A DNA stretch of 64,000 nt from Amycolatopsis sp. QT-25 (lineage in GTDB: Bacteria; Actinomycetota; Actinomycetes; Mycobacteriales; Pseudonocardiaceae). Shown here piece by piece: positions 4,584 to 18,220 of the stretch. The first letter of the stretch is position 1. Each line of letters starts with the position of its first letter. The position numbers were made by a program, and so were the translations under genes. The notes beneath the pieces were generated by a model. It saw nothing but the letters and a program-made list of their open reading frames with translations. It did no database searches and had not been told where the DNA came from. The stretch is taken from the NCBI RefSeq assembly GCF_029369745.1, contig NZ_CP120210.1, positions 5,766,001 through 5,830,000 of the forward strand, in the 5' to 3' direction.

Positions 4584-5563
4584 CCGACCGATCCACCTTG
4601 CGGCAGGCGCCGGGCGCCCCCGGGACCCGCATCCTCGGTGTCGGGAGCTTCCAGCCCGAGAAGATCGTGACCAACGACGATCTCTCGAAGATCATGGACA
4701 CCAACGACCAGTGGATCCGCGAGCGGGTCGGCATCATCGAGCGCCGGTTCGCCGAGAAGGACGAGTCGCTGGTCGACATGGCGGTCAAGGCGGGCACCGC
4801 CGCACTGGCGGACGCCGGGGTGGATCCGTCCGAAGTGGACACGGTCATCCTGCCGAACTGCACGATGCCCACGCAGATCCCGAACGCCGCCGCGCAGGTG
4901 GCCGACCGGATCGGCATCACGCATCCGGCGGCGTTCGATCTCAACGCCGCCTGCGCCGGGTTCTGTTACGGCATCGGCGTCGCCTCGGACCTCATCCGGG
5001 CGGGTACCGCGAAGAAGGCGCTCGTGATCGGCGCCGAGAAGCTCACCGACCACGTCGACCCGGTCGACCGCGCGAACGCGATCATCTTCGCCGACGGCGC
5101 GGGCGCGGCGGTGGTCGGCGCGGCCGACACCCCCCGGATCGGCCCGGTCGCCTGGGGCAGCGCGGGTGAGCACGTCGACCTCATCTACATGCGCGACGAC
5201 AGGTGGATCTACCAGGAGGGCCAGTCGGTCTTCCGCTGGGCGACCACGCAGATCGCGCCGATCGCCTTGCGGGCGCTGGAACTGGCCGGGCTCGAACCGT
5301 CCGATGTGGACGTGCTGATCCCGCATCAGGCCAACCTTCGCATCGTCGAAGCCATCGCCAAGAAGCTGCGCGCCAAGGGCGCCCGCGAGGACATGGTCGT
5401 GGCCGACGACATCAAGTACTCGGGCAACACCTCGTCCGCGTCGATTCCGTTGGCGCTGGACCACATGCGGAAGGCGGGCACCGCGAAACAGGGCGACGTC
5501 GTACTCGCCGTGGGTTTCGGTGCCGGACTCTCCTACGCGGGCCAGGCCTTCATCTGCCCGTGA
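4580..5563 (+). CDS. fabH: 3-oxoacyl-ACP synthase III (beta-ketoacyl-ACP synthase III)
   Basis: Condenses a short acyl-CoA primer with malonyl-ACP to start fatty acid synthesis; in actinomycetes it typically prefers branched starters and so sets iso/anteiso chains. The 327-residue protein keeps the full triad: Cys125 in LNAACAGFCY, His249 in IPHQANLRI and Asn283 in YSGNTSSAS. The GTG start lies inside the end of fabD (GTGA overlap). A gap of 68 bases follows before acpP. Substrate preference cannot be read from the sequence alone. Confidence 0.96.
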   Translation: MTDRSTLRQAPGAPGTRILGVGSFQPEKIVTNDDLSKIMDTNDQWIRERVGIIERRFAEKDESLVDMAVKAGTAALADAGVDPSEVDTVILPNCTMPTQIPNAAAQVADRIGITHPAAFDLNAACAGFCYGIGVASDLIRAGTAKKALVIGAEKLTDHVDPVDRANAIIFADGAGAAVVGAADTPRIGPVAWGSAGEHVDLIYMRDDRWIYQEGQSVFRWATTQIAPIALRALELAGLEPSDVDVLIPHQANLRIVEAIAKKLRAKGAREDMVVADDIKYSGNTSSASIPLALDHMRKAGTAKQGDVVLAVGFGAGLSYAGQAFICP

Positions 5564-5631
5564 TGAATACTTCCCTTGTGGACACCGTGTCCGCAGGGCA
5601 GCCGAAAGCATCACCGAGAAGGGAACAACCA

Positions 5632-5877
5632 GTGGCAGACAACGCAGAGATCCTCGCCGGCCTCGCCGAGATCGTCGAAGAGGTCGCCGGTGTGGCGCAG
5701 GACGACGTGACCGCCGAGAAGTCCTTCGTGGACGACCTCGACATCGACTCGCTGTCCATGGTGGAGATCGCCGTCCAGGCCGAGGACAAGTTCGGCGTCA
5801 AGATCCCGGACGACGAGCTCGCGAACCTGAAGACCGTTGGCGACGCGGTGAACTACGTGTCGGCCAACGCCAAGTAA
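5632..5877 (+). CDS. acpP: Acyl carrier protein of fatty acid synthesis
   Basis: Carries the growing acyl chain on a phosphopantetheine arm. From the GTG at 5632 (ribosome site gaaggga about 8 bases upstream) the product is 81 residues, acidic and helical. Ser40 in the DLDIDSLSMVEI motif is the attachment site, and the following EIAVQAEDKFGVKIPDDEL stretch is the recognition helix II region. Longer in-frame upstream sequence belongs to fabH read in another frame and is not part of the protein. Its place between fabH and fabF marks it as the fatty acid ACP rather than a polyketide ACP. Confidence 0.97.
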   Translation: MADNAEILAGLAEIVEEVAGVAQDDVTAEKSFVDDLDIDSLSMVEIAVQAEDKFGVKIPDDELANLKTVGDAVNYVSANAK

Positions 5878-12318: not shown

Positions 12319-13770
12319 GTGCGACTCGTTCGCCTCGCTCAACAGCCGTCCCGGGTGGCCGAGGACGTCCGCGCCGCGCTGGCCTCACTGGGCCGGGGCG
12401 GCAACGTCGTCGGCGGCGTCGCCCTGATCGGTGTCAGCCCGGTCGAAGGGCGGCCGGTGGAGGCCGTCGTCGTCATGCCGAAGGGCATCCTCATCGTCAT
12501 CGGTGTCGACCTGCCGGACCCGGCGTTGAAACTCGAAGCCCCGCTCGGCGGGCCGTGGAAGGCCGACGGCTGGCCGCTGGTCCACGGTGACACCTCGATC
12601 AACCCGGCCACGGACGCGCTCTCGCTGTCCGCCGCGTGCACCCACCGGATCGCGGACGTCGCGCCCGGCGCCGGGCCGATCGGCACGATCATCGCCGTCG
12701 GCCCCTATGTGGAGACGGTCGACCAGCCCGCCGCGGACCTCGCCGGCTCGGTCCGTGTCCTCTATCCGACGGCGACGACGATGCTCGCCGCGACGGTCTC
12801 GCTGGCCACCGCGCCCCGTCCCCGCTCGGTCCGGCAGGCGCGGGACCTGATCGCCGCGCTCGCCCCGGACGCGCCGCCGATGTCCGAGGAGATGTTGCTC
12901 GGCGAGGGTTTCAGCGTCCACTCCGACGACGAGCCGACGGTGATCCGCGAGAACCCGCTCGTCGCCGTCGCCCCGACGGTTCCGGTACGGCATCCAGGGA
13001 AGGCGAAGAGAGCGGCGAAACCGGCCGTCCCTCCCGTCGACCCCGCGCGGGCCGCCTCGCCCGTTCAGCCTGTTCGGCAGGCCGTCGCCACGAAGCCCAC
13101 TCCCCCGGCCGGGCAAGTCCCGCCACCGGCGGCGGCTCCCGCCGAGCCCGCCCCGAAGAAACCGCACCAGTCCAAGACGGTGAGGTGGCTTCCGGTCGCC
13201 GCGATCGGCCTGCTCATCGTGCTGCTGGTCGCGGCCATCAGCGTGGCCTCCGGCGGTGACGACACCGCGTCCACGCGAACTCCCCCGCCGCCGACCCCGG
13301 CCACCAGTCCTCCACCGCCGGGCAGCAGCGCGGTCGAGAACATCCAGTTCACCTCGCGGGCGTCGGCCGCGGATCAGAAATGCGCGTCGCACGCGTACGG
13401 GGACGTCCAAGCGAGCCTTCAGCGGACGAGTTGCGCAGGGGTGAAACGGGCCAGCTTCGCCAGTTCCATCGACGGCCGGGCCGCCGCGGCGACGATCGCC
13501 GTCGTGGAATTCCCGGACACCGGACAGGCGACCGCGTTCAAGGCCACCGCCGACACCCCCGGCGGTGGCGGCATCCTCGATCTCGCCACCGAGACCGGCC
13601 AGTGGCAGGGCGAGGTCCCGGTGTTCGAGGGCGCCGCCTACCAGAGCAGCGTGGACGGCAAGGCGGTCCGGCTGGTCCAGGTGGTGTGGGTGCCGGGACC
13701 GTCTACTGCGGACGATCCCGGCCTGGTCCGCGGCGCGAAGGCCGCGCTCGAACTGCCCGTGACCGGCTAA
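12319..13770 (+). CDS. Single-span membrane protein of unknown function
   Basis: About 483 residues from the GTG at 12319, chosen because ggggagggg sits 5 bases before it; an in-frame ATG at 12304 is possible. The cytoplasmic N-terminal domain (about 190 residues, VRLVRLAQQPSRVAEDVRAA) has alternating strands (PVEAVVVMPKGILIVIGVDL) and is not a family I know. A Pro/Ala-rich linker follows, then one membrane span (WLPVAAIGLLIVLLVAAISV) and an extracytoplasmic domain with three cysteines (KCASHAYG, LQRTSCAG). The layout resembles actinobacterial cell-envelope sensor or anchor proteins. The stop codon overlaps that of the converging flavoprotein gene. Confidence 0.7.
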   Translation: MRLVRLAQQPSRVAEDVRAALASLGRGGNVVGGVALIGVSPVEGRPVEAVVVMPKGILIVIGVDLPDPALKLEAPLGGPWKADGWPLVHGDTSINPATDALSLSAACTHRIADVAPGAGPIGTIIAVGPYVETVDQPAADLAGSVRVLYPTATTMLAATVSLATAPRPRSVRQARDLIAALAPDAPPMSEEMLLGEGFSVHSDDEPTVIRENPLVAVAPTVPVRHPGKAKRAAKPAVPPVDPARAASPVQPVRQAVATKPTPPAGQVPPPAAAPAEPAPKKPHQSKTVRWLPVAAIGLLIVLLVAAISVASGGDDTASTRTPPPPTPATSPPPPGSSAVENIQFTSRASAADQKCASHAYGDVQASLQRTSCAGVKRASFASSIDGRAAAATIAVVEFPDTGQATAFKATADTPGGGGILDLATETGQWQGEVPVFEGAAYQSSVDGKAVRLVQVVWVPGPSTADDPGLVRGAKAALELPVTG

Positions 13771-15161
13771 AGCCCGTACGCCTCCAGCAGGCGCAGCCAT
13801 ACCTCGCTGATCGTCGGGAACGACGGGACCGCGTGCCACAGCCTCGACAGCGGGACCTCCCCGACGATCGCGATCGTCGCCGAATGCAGCAGTTCGGACA
13901 CGTCCTGCCCGACGAAGGTCGCGCCGAGGAGGACACCGCGTTCGGTGTCGACGATGATCCGCGCCTTGCCCGCGTAACCGTCCGCGTGCAGCGAAGAACC
14001 GGCGACCGCGATGTCGATGTCGACGACGCGGTGCGGCTTGCCCTCCTCCGGCCCGGCGAGCCCGACCGAAGCGACCTCCGGGTCGGTGAAGACGACCTGC
14101 GGGATGGCGTGGTGATCGGCCGTGGCGCTGTGCGCGCTCCACGCGGCGGAATCGACCGGCTTGCCCGCCGCCTGTGCGGCCACGGAGTCACCGGCGGCCC
14201 TGGCCGCGTATTTGCCCTGATGGGTCAGCGGCGCCCGGCCGGTGACGTCTCCGACGGCGAACAGCCAGTCACCGTCCACAGCGGACACACGGCCGTTGTC
14301 GTCCGTCTCGAGCGGCGCGCCGGCTTCGAGCCCGAGCGACTCCACGCCGAGCCCGTCGGTCGCCGGGCGGCGGCCGGTGGCGACGAGCAGTTCGTCGACG
14401 ACCAACCGGTCACCGCCCTTCAACGCCAATTCCTTGCCACCGTCCACTGCGGACACGGAGTCGAGGCCGGAGCCGGTGTGCACGGTGACCCCGGCTTCGC
14501 GGAGTCCCGCGATGACGGCGTCACCCGCGAAGTCCGGCAGCCGCGGCAGGGGACGCGCGCCCGAAACGATCAGGTGGACTTCGGCGCCGAGCGTGGCGAA
14601 GGCCTGCGCCATCTCCACTCCGACGACACCGCCACCCAGTACGCCGAGACGGCCCGGAACCTTCTCCGCCGAAGTCGCCTCTCGCGAACCCCACGGGGAA
14701 ACGGTGTCCAGTCCGGGGATCGACGGCGTCCGCGGCACACTGCCCGTGGCGACGATCACGGCGTGCCGCGCGGTCAGCACGTCACCGCCGTCGACCGTGA
14801 CCTCCCGCTCACCGCTGATGCGGCCGTGCCCGCGGATCGGGACGATCCCGACGCCTTCGGCCCACTCGACCTGTCCGGTGTCGTCTCCCTTGCCGGTGAA
14901 CCGGTCACGGCGCGCGAACACCGCGGCCGGGTCGACCGCGTCACCCACCGGGACACCGGGGACCCGCTTGGCGGCGGCGAGGAGGTTCCCCGGCCGCAGC
15001 AGCGCCTTGCTCGGAATGCAGGCCCAGTAAGAACATTCGCCGCCGAAGCGTTCGTGTTCGACGAGCGCGACCCGGAGTCCGCCGCGCGCCGCCCGTTCGG
15101 CCGCGACCTCGCCGACGGGGCCGCCTCCGATCACGATCACGTCAAAAGTCTGTGCTGACAT
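13767..15161 (-). CDS. FAD-dependent NAD(P)-disulfide oxidoreductase family flavoprotein
   Basis: A class I pyridine nucleotide-disulfide oxidoreductase of about 464 residues from the ATG at 15161 (MSAQTFDVIVIGGGPVGEVA). It has an N-terminal FAD Rossmann motif, a central NAD(P) motif (GVLGGGVVGVEMAQAF), the second FAD motif LFAVGDVTGRAPLTHQG and a dimerisation domain. The redox motif is ECSYWACIPSK: both cysteines (43 and 48) are present but the intervening residues are SYWA instead of the usual LNVG. The C-terminal HPxxxE active-site pair of lipoamide and glutathione reductases is not evident (SRLWHAVPSFPTISEVW instead). Substrate unknown; it may not reduce a classical disulfide. Confidence 0.85.
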   Translation of the reverse strand: MSAQTFDVIVIGGGPVGEVAAERAARGGLRVALVEHERFGGECSYWACIPSKALLRPGNLLAAAKRVPGVPVGDAVDPAAVFARRDRFTGKGDDTGQVEWAEGVGIVPIRGHGRISGEREVTVDGGDVLTARHAVIVATGSVPRTPSIPGLDTVSPWGSREATSAEKVPGRLGVLGGGVVGVEMAQAFATLGAEVHLIVSGARPLPRLPDFAGDAVIAGLREAGVTVHTGSGLDSVSAVDGGKELALKGGDRLVVDELLVATGRRPATDGLGVESLGLEAGAPLETDDNGRVSAVDGDWLFAVGDVTGRAPLTHQGKYAARAAGDSVAAQAAGKPVDSAAWSAHSATADHHAIPQVVFTDPEVASVGLAGPEEGKPHRVVDIDIAVAGSSLHADGYAGKARIIVDTERGVLLGATFVGQDVSELLHSATIAIVGEVPLSRLWHAVPSFPTISEVWLRLLEAYGL

Positions 15162-15296
15162 GCATTCAGCGCACACCACCGCGCAGCTTCGCGCAACCTG
15201 CCGCTATCCTCGTGTCGCTGCGTGAGTCATCAGCCGCGGGTTCAGGTTGCACCGTGCCGGTTACGCAGTAGAACGATCGAGCGCGGGAGGTTTTTC

Positions 15297-16004
15297 ATGG
15301 CCAGGAACACTGCTGTGCATTTGCTGGATGATCTGACCGGTGAGGCGGCCGAAGAAACGGTCGCTTTCGCTTTGGACGGAATCGCTTACGACATCGACCT
15401 TTCGGCCGACAACGCCACCGCACTCCGGGAAATCCTGCGTGCCTATGTGGAGAACGGCCGACGGATCGGTGGACGGAAACTGCGGCCGCGGATCGTGCAG
15501 CGGCCCAAGGGCGCGCGGGTGTCGAAGTCGACCCCGAAGACCACGGCCACCGCCGCGAAGGCCGAGGCGAAGCCGGGCCGCAAGCCCGCCGCGAAGGGTG
15601 TCGCCGGCCGCAAGCCCGCCGCCGCCAAGGCCGCTCCCAAGACCACCGCCGCGAAGACCACCGCCGCCAAGGCGGAGGCGAAGGCTCCCGCCAAGACCAC
15701 GGCGAAAGCCACCGCTGCCAAGGCGAAGTCGGCCCGCGGCACGGCGGCGAAGGCCACCTCGGCCAAGACTCCGGCCGGTCGCGCGAAGACCTCCACCGCG
15801 ACCAAGACCACGGTCAAGGCAGCGCCGAAGGCCGCGGCCAAGACGGCGGCCGCCCCGAAGGCAGCCGCCGCGAAGACGACGGCCGCCAAGGCCGCGCCGA
15901 AGGCCGCCGCCGGCACCCCGGCGAAGAAGGCCGTGGAGCCGAAGAAGACCACGCGCGCCGCCCGCAAGGTGCCCGCCGTCACTTTCTCGGCCACCGAAAA
16001 GTAG
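15297..16004 (+). CDS. Lsr2-type dimerisation domain fused to a lysine/alanine-rich histone H1-like tail
   Basis: A 235-residue basic protein from the ATG at 15297 with a strong ribosome site (gggagg). Residues 1-60 (MARNTAVHLLDDLTGEAAEE to YVENGRRIGGR) match the N-terminal oligomerisation domain of Lsr2, the actinobacterial H-NS analogue. The expected C-terminal DNA-binding domain with its RGR minor-groove motif is absent. Residues about 75-225 are instead a run of short Ala/Lys/Thr/Pro repeats (KTTAAK, KAAPK, KAAAKT), as in histone H1 and the tails of actinobacterial HupB. It should bind nucleoid DNA by charge while dimerising through the Lsr2 part; this is inference. Short internal repeats make replication slippage likely. 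It is divergent from the flavoprotein gene. Confidence 0.85.
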   Translation: MARNTAVHLLDDLTGEAAEETVAFALDGIAYDIDLSADNATALREILRAYVENGRRIGGRKLRPRIVQRPKGARVSKSTPKTTATAAKAEAKPGRKPAAKGVAGRKPAAAKAAPKTTAAKTTAAKAEAKAPAKTTAKATAAKAKSARGTAAKATSAKTPAGRAKTSTATKTTVKAAPKAAAKTAAAPKAAAAKTTAAKAAPKAAAGTPAKKAVEPKKTTRAARKVPAVTFSATEK

Positions 16005-16008
16005 CCGC

Positions 16009-16054
16009 CATAAAAGGGCCCCATTCGCGGTAAGGCGAATGGGGCCCCTTTATG
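16009..16054. repeat. Palindromic repeat/terminator between converging genes
   Basis: Arms of 20 bases (cataaaagggccccattcgc and its complement, one mismatch) enclose a six-base loop. It starts 5 bases after the stop of the Lsr2-like gene and 29 bases before the end of the lipoate ligase gene on the other strand, so it can terminate both. The outer TAAA(A/G)GG...CCTTTA arm is a variant of the window-wide palindrome family. Confidence 0.8.
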
Positions 16055-16082: not shown

Positions 16083-16838
16083 TCACCCTTGCGAGGCCGG
16101 CCGCTGAGCCCCTTCCGAATGCCACTCCGGATACCCGTACCGCGTGTGCCGGAGCGAGCGGTGCCACTCCCGCTCCTCGGCCGAGGGCTTCCTGGTGGCG
16201 AGTTCACCCAGTCGGGCGGCCGCCGCCACACGGACCGCGGCCGTGACTTCGGCAACACCTTTGCGCAGGCCATGCTCGGCGAGCGACGCGACCGGGCTCC
16301 GGTGGGAGTCGAGCGGACGGGGATCCGCGGGTGCCGAAGTGAGGTATCGGCCGACTCGTTCGGCCGCGGTCGACACGAGCAGTGTCGAATGCGCGAGCAA
16401 GCCCGTTCTCGTCCGGAACACGGCGAAACCGCACAGCTTCGCGTCACCGACGAACAGTCCCCGATCACCGAGCCGCGACGGCAGCCCGAGTTCGGCCACC
16501 GTCGCGGTCATCAGTTCCCCGAGCGCTTCGAGCGGCTTGACGGCTTTCGCCGCCAGGCCCAGCCCGGGCAGGACGAGGGTGATGTTGAGATTGCCGGGAT
16601 CGTGGAACACGGTGCCGCCGCCGCTGGCCCGGCGCAGCACCGGGACGCCGTCAGCCGCGCAGACGTCGGCCTTGACCTCGCGTTCGATTTTCTGTCCCCG
16701 GCCCACGACCACGGCATCGGTGTTGCGCCAGATCCACAGGACCGGCGCCTCCGGTGCGGCACGCAGGAGGGCTTCGTCGAACGCGAGGTTGTCGGCCGGG
16801 TCGTCGAACGAGGCGACGACTTCCGAGGGACCGATCAC
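16083..16838 (-). CDS. lplA: Lipoate-protein ligase A family protein
   Basis: Attaches lipoate (or octanoate) to E2/GcvH lipoyl domains, or a close relative such as a biotin/lipoate transferase. The 251-residue protein has the substrate-binding RRASGGGTVFHDPGNLN motif near residues 68-84 and GDAKLCGFAVFRT with the conserved lysine. It lacks a long C-terminal accessory domain, so it may be a LipM/LplA-core enzyme. Its ATG overlaps the end of pntB by four bases, making it the last gene of the transhydrogenase operon; both functions concern mitochondrial-type central metabolism, but a direct link is not established. Confidence 0.85.
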   Translation of the reverse strand: MIGPSEVVASFDDPADNLAFDEALLRAAPEAPVLWIWRNTDAVVVGRGQKIEREVKADVCAADGVPVLRRASGGGTVFHDPGNLNITLVLPGLGLAAKAVKPLEALGELMTATVAELGLPSRLGDRGLFVGDAKLCGFAVFRTRTGLLAHSTLLVSTAAERVGRYLTSAPADPRPLDSHRSPVASLAEHGLRKGVAEVTAAVRVAAAARLGELATRKPSAEEREWHRSLRHTRYGYPEWHSEGAQRPASQG

Positions 16839-18220
16839 AGTGCTTTGAGTTCCTCCACGATCTCGCCCACCGACGATTTGGCGTCGCCGAAGAGCATGCT
16901 TGTCTTCGCGTCGTAGAAGAGCTCGTTGTCGATGCCGGCGAAGCCCGAGCTCATACCGCGTTTGAGCACGATCACCGACCGGCTGTGGTTCACCTTGAGG
17001 ATCGGCATCCCGTAGATGGGCGAGCCCGGATCGGTCTCCGCGGCCGGGTTCGTGACGTCGTTCGCGCCGATCACCAGCGCGACGTCGGTCTGGGCGAACT
17101 CGGAGTTGATCTCGTCCATTTCCTTGAGCTGTTCGTACGGGACGTCGGCCTCGGCGAGGAGCACGTTCATGTGCCCCGGCATCCGGCCCGCCACCGGGTG
17201 GATGGCGTAGGCGACCGTGATCCCCTTGGCCTCCAGCAGTTTCGCCATCTCCCGGACGACGTGCTGTGCCTGCGCGACGGCCATGCCGTAGCCGGGGACG
17301 ACCACGACCTTGTTCGCGTACGCCATCTGGATCGCGGTGTCGGACGCGCTGGTGCTGCGGACCGGGCGGACCTCGCCGGAACCACCGCCCGAAACCGCCG
17401 TACCGCCACCGAAGCCACCGGCGACGATGGCCGGGATCGACCGGTTCATCGCTTTCGCCATCAGGTTCGTCAGGATCGAACCCGAGGCGCCGACGATCAT
17501 GCCCGCCACGATCAGCGCGGTGTTGTCGAGCGCGAGACCCATGGCCGCGGCCGACAGCCCGGTGAGCGCGTTCAGCAGCGAGATGACGACCGGCATGTCC
17601 GCGCCGCCGATCGGCAGCACGACCACCACGCCGAGCACGCCCGCCGCGACCAGCAGGCCGATCATCAGCAGTTCGGCGTCACCGCCGAGGGCGATGACGA
17701 CCGCGAGCACGATCGCGGCGATCAGCACCAGCGCGTTCACCGGTTGCTGCAGTCTGCCCAGTGTGATGGGACGGCCGGAGATGAGTTCCTGCAGTTTCCC
17801 GAAAGCGATGTTCGAGCCCCAGAAGGACACCGAACCGACGATCGCGGCGAACAACGACGCGATCGCGACGTACGCCGGCTCGTGCGCGTAGCCCTCGGTG
17901 GTGCGGAACTCGACCCACGCGATGAGCGCGACCGCCCCGCCGCCGACGCCGTTGAACAGCGCCACCATCTGCGGCATCGCGGTCATCTTCACCTTGCGCG
18001 CGGACGGCACGCCGACGACGACACCGATCGCGACGCCGAGCGCGATCAGCAGCCAGTCGCCCATTCCCGGTGTCAGCAGCGTCGCGATCACCGCGATGCC
18101 CATGCCGACCGCGGCGATCCAGTTGCCGCGTACCGCGGTGCGCGGACCGGTCAGCCCCATCAGGCCGTAGATGAACAGTGCGAAGGAAACGATGTAGAGG
18201 ACGGCGATGAAGGTCGTCAC
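16835..18220 (-). CDS. pntB: NAD(P) transhydrogenase subunit beta
   Basis: Membrane and NADP(H)-binding subunit of proton-translocating transhydrogenase, which drives NADH + NADP+ to NAD+ + NADPH. Of 461 residues, the first 275 or so carry about nine membrane helices (including VAVGMGIAVIATLLTPG-like stretches), and the C-terminal domain III binds NADP(H) (VVVPGYGMAVAQAQHVVREM, IHPVAGRMPGHMNVLLAEA, GANDVTNPAA, ILKVNHSRSVIVLKR). Domain order and length are normal. It overlaps both neighbours by four bases (ATGA), a tightly coupled operon. Confidence 0.96.
   Translation of the reverse strand: MTTFIAVLYIVSFALFIYGLMGLTGPRTAVRGNWIAAVGMGIAVIATLLTPGMGDWLLIALGVAIGVVVGVPSARKVKMTAMPQMVALFNGVGGGAVALIAWVEFRTTEGYAHEPAYVAIASLFAAIVGSVSFWGSNIAFGKLQELISGRPITLGRLQQPVNALVLIAAIVLAVVIALGGDAELLMIGLLVAAGVLGVVVVLPIGGADMPVVISLLNALTGLSAAAMGLALDNTALIVAGMIVGASGSILTNLMAKAMNRSIPAIVAGGFGGGTAVSGGGSGEVRPVRSTSASDTAIQMAYANKVVVVPGYGMAVAQAQHVVREMAKLLEAKGITVAYAIHPVAGRMPGHMNVLLAEADVPYEQLKEMDEINSEFAQTDVALVIGANDVTNPAAETDPGSPIYGMPILKVNHSRSVIVLKRGMSSGFAGIDNELFYDAKTSMLFGDAKSSVGEIVEELKAL

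Follow-up and report, generated by a model that had tools for sequence, protein, structure and literature searches.

The window analysed here, a 64,000-nucleotide stretch of the Amycolatopsis sp. QT-25 genome, contains a gene for a protein that we term Lsr2K, in which an N-terminal Lsr2 domain is followed by a long HupB-like tail and a conserved terminal peptide (Table 1). For Lsr2K and its neighbour genes, relatives at up to 97–98% protein identity bear Amycolatopsis names. A hexamer of the form TAT[CT]CT recurs upstream of 38 of 47 orthologues, at a distance characteristic of each clade, as compared to a mean of 1.0 and a maximum of 4 in shuffled sequences, and we regard it as a putative −10 element; a standard sigma-70 site was not called upstream of the gene. 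The hairpin between the convergent Lsr2K and lplA genes is likely a terminator shared in both directions.

Table 1. Features of the Lsr2K locus (positions in the window) and, in the last two rows, loci of the acidic-tailed family of other genera discussed in the text (positions in their own sequences).
Feature	Position	Strand	Basis or remark
Lsr2K coding sequence (Lsr2 domain + HupB-like tail, 235 aa plus stop)	15297..16004	+	ATG start
Lsr2 dimerisation domain, residues 1-58	15297..15470	+	PF11774; 4e1p by sequence and fold
Disordered K/A/T/P tail, residues 66-221	15492..15959	+	composition, low pLDDT, dN/dS 0.29
Conserved C-terminal peptide KVPAVTFSATEK, residues 224-235	15966..16001	+	orthologue conservation, dN/dS 0.083
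GGGAGG ribosome-binding site	15285..15290	+	kept in nearly all orthologue leaders
TATCCT, putative promoter -10 element	15205..15210	+	TAT[CT]CT conservation upstream of orthologues
Strong hairpin, likely terminator	16009..16054	+	-35.3 kcal/mol, z -6.2
Pyridine-nucleotide-disulphide oxidoreductase (LpdA/quinone-reductase-like), divergent neighbour	13767..15179	-	conserved context
Lipoate-protein-ligase-like (lplA), convergent neighbour	16083..16838	-	conserved context
pntB, next after lplA-like gene	16835-18220		
Acidic-tailed family: L079 (second lsr2-like ORF), L095, L099, L105, L111	L079: near 5476-5640	L079: -	
Acidic-tailed family: L175, L182, L187-L213	L175: 1219; L182: 2099	L175: -; L182: +	

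Residues 1–58 matched the Lsr2 family PF11774 with 78.9 bits against a gathering cut-off of 29.6; a Pfam search returned no other family for Lsr2K, and NCBIfam and PADLOC searches returned none. The closest solved structures by sequence are those of Mycobacterium tuberculosis N-Lsr2, 4e1p (E 1.6e-14) and 4e1r (E 5e-14). AlphaFold modelling from a 52-row alignment assigned residues 11–50 a mean pLDDT above 90 and predicted the remainder to be disordered. With 14 orthologues alone the mean pLDDT was 49, and the N-domain was well modelled once N-domains of true Lsr2 had been added. In the monomer model, predicted strands at residues 20–26 and 29–35 and a helix at 37–58 reproduce the strand-strand-helix order of N-Lsr2, and a Foldseek search with this monomer placed 4e1p on top (E 1.5e-4, TM 0.80 by target length). 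The fold check, which had been set beforehand as a refuting test, therefore returned the N-Lsr2 fold.

In M. tuberculosis N-Lsr2, the residues listed as conserved in the dimer core are D11, D12, F25, Y32, I34, D35, L36, L44, L48 and W51, an Asp28–Arg45 salt bridge connects both chains of the dimer, and the N-terminal strand links dimers into chains in the crystal (PMC3374832). The equivalents of these core residues and of the D28–R45 pair are invariant across the 14-row orthologue alignment except for W51, which is replaced by tyrosine in the window protein, and the N-domain evolves with a dN/dS of 0.10 among 13 close orthologues. Seven positions separate the clade from true Lsr2, five of which (3, 4, 5, 6 and 10) lie within the N-terminal chain-forming strand. 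This distribution suggests that dimer pairing was retained and chain-building altered, a pattern as compatible with an assembly of its own as with a filament cap. By its domain match, fold and core residues, Lsr2K belongs to the Lsr2 dimerisation-domain superfamily (PF11774). The AT-hook-like C-terminal domain with its WARxxG...RGR or (Q/R)GR motif is absent from Lsr2K and from the members read; the HU head domain (PF00216) was not found by Pfam, nor was the globular winged-helix domain of histone H1 by Pfam or fold, the Lsr2 domain standing alone. Lsr2K is outside the RGR-type silencers and is not an HU.

The remainder of the protein is a long K/A-rich, H1-like C-terminal tail of about 155 residues, a HupB-type feature. 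In residues 67–222, alanine contributes 37%, lysine 21%, threonine 16% and proline 8%, with a net charge of +36. The first-pass annotation had described a protein that keeps the first 60 residues of Lsr2, has lost the AT-hook-like RGR domain and has gained a lysine/alanine tail of about 150 residues, and each of these points agrees with what we found. Tails of 64 members range from 48 to 331 residues and from +14 to +60 in net charge with few bulky residues; in one clade (genus g24), they are R/P-rich instead of K/A-rich. Among the 13 close orthologues, the tail has a dN/dS of 0.29. K or R occurs in 42 of the occupied tail columns, and 41 of these are basic in at least 11 of the 13 sequences, whereas Ala, Thr, Ser, Pro and Val interchange freely. 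This substitution pattern indicates that the tail is under selection for spaced positive charge within a flexible chain.

A comparable tail is present on the HU protein of the host genome (L161, G000:C1:6083965-6084225; 218 aa), where it spans 125 residues with a net charge of +32. In both tails the basic residues are mostly 4–5 apart, and the two proteins have the 12-residue peptide AAKTTAAKAAPK in common, which is longer than in any of 500 shuffles (longest 11), a result weakened by the low-complexity motifs involved. An origin of the Lsr2K tail as a copy of the host hupB tail was considered and rejected, the longest common DNA stretch being 16 nt, the same as in codon shuffles.

Overlooked by the first-pass annotation was a short peptide at the very C-terminus. 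Nearly all members end in P-x-[VI]-x-F-S-[AS], 2–5 residues before the stop; L172 continues for 13 more residues, and in L031 the end was read through what is probably a frame problem or an extension. The P, V, F, S and A residues are invariant in 15 diverse orthologues, and with a dN/dS of 0.083 among the 13 close orthologues the peptide is about as constrained as the N-domain. A profile of the peptide scored 26.7 bits at the Lsr2K gene versus at most 13.6 bits elsewhere in its own genome. Two other views of the peptide were discarded: as a motif common to many host proteins, since none of the readable matches (L164 and L165 left out) is protein-terminal, and as a sliding-clamp motif, an idea prompted by the VSLPLF of Saccharopolyspora-type proteins, since the usual glutamine is missing. 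Docking motifs are typically placed in this way, at the tip of a long flexible tail, and we regard the peptide as a candidate for one.

Orthologues of the same layout occur in 38 of 40 Amycolatopsis genomes and, among 150 genomes of the Pseudonocardiaceae, in nine genera (Amycolatopsis and eight others). Within these 150 genomes, an N-domain profile splits orthologues (at least 108 bits) from other Lsr2 proteins (at most 102 bits), and in an order-level sample of 250 genomes no match exceeded 91 bits outside the family. The usual locus, divergent from the oxidoreductase and convergent with lplA and/or pntB-pntA, is kept beyond the genus. As to the two Amycolatopsis genomes without Lsr2K, the neighbouring oxidoreductase was likewise not found in one (G035), whereas the other (G001) has intact neighbours but lacks the gene; in that genome, at least, Lsr2K can be dispensed with. 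When 177 N-domains were placed in a quick likelihood tree, Lsr2K, including L031, formed one clade (SH-aLRT 99) on a stem of 0.58 changes per column; the alignment is short, leaving the branching inside the clade weakly resolved. A phage or plasmid origin was rejected, as no such record covers 80% of the protein and the matches, which are ordinary Lsr2-like proteins, were confined to the N-domain. Judged from these sequence data, Lsr2K is a genuine and old family confined to part of the Pseudonocardiaceae.

The host genome, searched as a single contig of 8.0 Mb, has five genes with an Lsr2 domain, Lsr2K among them. A separate full-length Lsr2, for which a check had been advised, is indeed present as a 117-aa protein with the RGR motif (L001), along with three longer RGR-bearing paralogues of 139–147 aa that have short basic ends of the KRAPRKK type (L002, L003 and L004). 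The Lsr2K locus is not near lsr2.

Among characterised proteins, the closest layout is that of MSMEG_1060, an Lsr2 paralogue from M. smegmatis, a likeness drawn from its published description (PMC8125055). Like Lsr2K, it combines an Lsr2 N-domain with an added basic C-terminal tail, lacks the Q/RGR motif and coexists with a true Lsr2 elsewhere in the genome. However, its tail of 20 aa follows a diverged C-terminal domain, whereas in Lsr2K the C-domain is missing, the tail runs to about 155 aa and the conserved end-peptide is present. The earlier statement that no characterised protein has this layout was accordingly nearly right, MSMEG_1060 being the exception (PMC8125055). With M. tuberculosis Lsr2 (Rv3597c; N-domain 4e1p), Lsr2K shares a dimerisation domain that is 54% identical in the structural alignment, together with the predicted fold and the core residues, but it differs in lacking the AT-hook-like DNA-binding domain and in having an altered chain-forming strand, the long tail and the end-peptide. 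The actinobacterial HU proteins HupB and HupS, with their PAKK/KAAK tails, resemble Lsr2K in tail composition, basic spacing and common peptides, but carry an HU head in place of an Lsr2 head. LsrL of Streptomyces is likewise a second Lsr2-family protein alongside Lsr2, yet it resembles Lsr2 over its full length at about 50% identity, unlike Lsr2K (PMC6584129). The Pseudomonas protein AlgP, compared by description, is H1-like as is the Lsr2K tail, and the available part of its source reports no Lsr2 domain (PMC9239181). Among the papers searched, we found no description of an Lsr2 N-domain fused to a HupB/H1-like tail without a C-domain, nor of the end-peptide, and no paper on Lsr2 in Pseudonocardiaceae. 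The Lsr2 N-domain and the HupB/H1-like tail are known parts, and what appears to be new is their fusion without a C-domain plus the end-peptide.

Taking these features together, Lsr2K is probably a nucleoid protein separate from Lsr2, forming an Lsr2-like dimer that holds DNA through HupB/H1-type tails and docks to a partner by its end-peptide. Homology, the predicted monomer fold and the conservation of the dimer core all suggest that the N-domain would form the β-β-α dimer of Lsr2. The dimer's two long, disordered and polycationic tails would attach to the DNA backbone irrespective of sequence and, like the HupB/H1 tail, may bridge or condense DNA. HupB itself depends on its tail to bind DNA stably, and binding becomes unstable once the tail is removed (PMC5676037). 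Because the AT-selective RGR hook is missing, Lsr2K is predicted not to select AT-rich islands; by analogy with MSMEG_1060, it would spread over the entire GC-rich nucleoid instead of nucleating at such islands. That P-x-V-x-F-S-A is conserved where the tail ends is the basis for assuming that this peptide may dock a partner.

For a disordered cationic tail, RNA and polyphosphate are further possible ligands, which counts against a reading restricted to DNA. The tail is in itself not DNA-specific, and the H1-like AlgP has been linked with polyphosphate granules in the available part of its source (PMC9239181). That Lsr2K chiefly binds such other polyanions is nevertheless quite improbable in our estimate, given that its head domain comes from a DNA-organising family and that all relatives found in the literature act on DNA. 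An artefact, in which a truncated lsr2 gene runs into a low-complexity repeat that drifts neutrally or arose in assembly, has next to no chance of being the explanation. The low-complexity sequence and the weak short-period repeats, the only ones that TRF detected in the tail, could be taken as signs of such an artefact; against it, 38 of the 40 Amycolatopsis genomes and a further eight genera have the identical layout, tail charge and end-peptide are under purifying selection, and the promoter element and ribosome site are conserved. Assembly expansion in particular, raised beforehand as a concern, is ruled out because K/R columns are kept while A, T, S, P and V swap.

The remaining alternative is that Lsr2K acts as a natural modulator or antagonist of Lsr2, a hook-less subunit whose non-specific tail would enter silencing filaments and loosen or spread them. 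The pairing with true Lsr2 through the N-domain that had been suggested at the outset is possible, with the dimer core and the Asp28–Arg45 equivalents conserved and four RGR-bearing potential partners encoded in the host genome; the authors of the MSMEG_1060 study likewise propose hetero-oligomers with Lsr2 (PMC8125055). Poisoning is feasible because artificial variants defective in DNA binding are dominant negative: the Lsr2 R82A protein is so in Streptomyces (PMC6584129), and an overexpressed N-terminal fragment of CgpS induces the CGP3 prophage (PMC7074111). Yet these precedents lack any DNA binding, whereas Lsr2K carries a strong polycation, and its locus lies away from lsr2. The changes relative to true Lsr2 cluster in the chain-forming strand, and the long clade stem fits specialised self-assembly at least equally well. 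The suggested remodelling or poisoning of Lsr2 filaments, although possible, has thus not gained support, and we hold an antagonist role to be unlikely.

In Actinobacteria, antibiotic clusters are silenced by Lsr2 and DNA is packed by tailed HU proteins, and vancomycin and rifamycin are among the antibiotics for which Amycolatopsis is noted. As a separate nucleoid protein, Lsr2K would unite both devices in one conserved Amycolatopsis protein and reuse the Lsr2 pairing domain with a different DNA-binding mode. A direct question is whether a silencer becomes a general packaging protein when its AT-selective hook is replaced by a tail that binds without specificity; a second one is what the end-peptide holds on to.

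A related design is seen in Saccharopolyspora-type genera, which have a 147–169-aa protein whose Lsr2 N-domain is followed not by an RGR domain but by an Arg/Glu-rich middle and an acidic stretch. These proteins end in VSLPxFSSA, and their genes lie divergently beside the true lsr2. In our sample, the acidic-tailed family occurs in nine genera and Lsr2K in nine, with none of the 46 genera having both; chance alone would give about 1.8 co-occurrences, with a P(0) of about 0.11, so the apparent mutual exclusion is not significant and was not retained as a finding. Should the endings of both families be related, an Lsr2 dimer plus end-peptide would form the conserved unit, with variable tail chemistry. 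Going further, Lsr2K might represent a distinct class of bacterial chromatin protein, in which its own chain-forming strand keeps the dimer apart from Lsr2, H1-like tails coat the nucleoid and the end-peptide tethers a specific partner, and which the acidic-tailed sister design replaces beside lsr2 in Saccharopolyspora-type genera; taken jointly, these propositions form a tentative picture that we consider conceivable but doubtful. As a separate observation, the Lsr2 gene L069 lies on a contig labelled as Bacillota (FQLW01000006.1, Tissierella sp. Marseille-P2918) and closely resembles the Varibaculum sequence L078, probably reflecting contamination or transfer.
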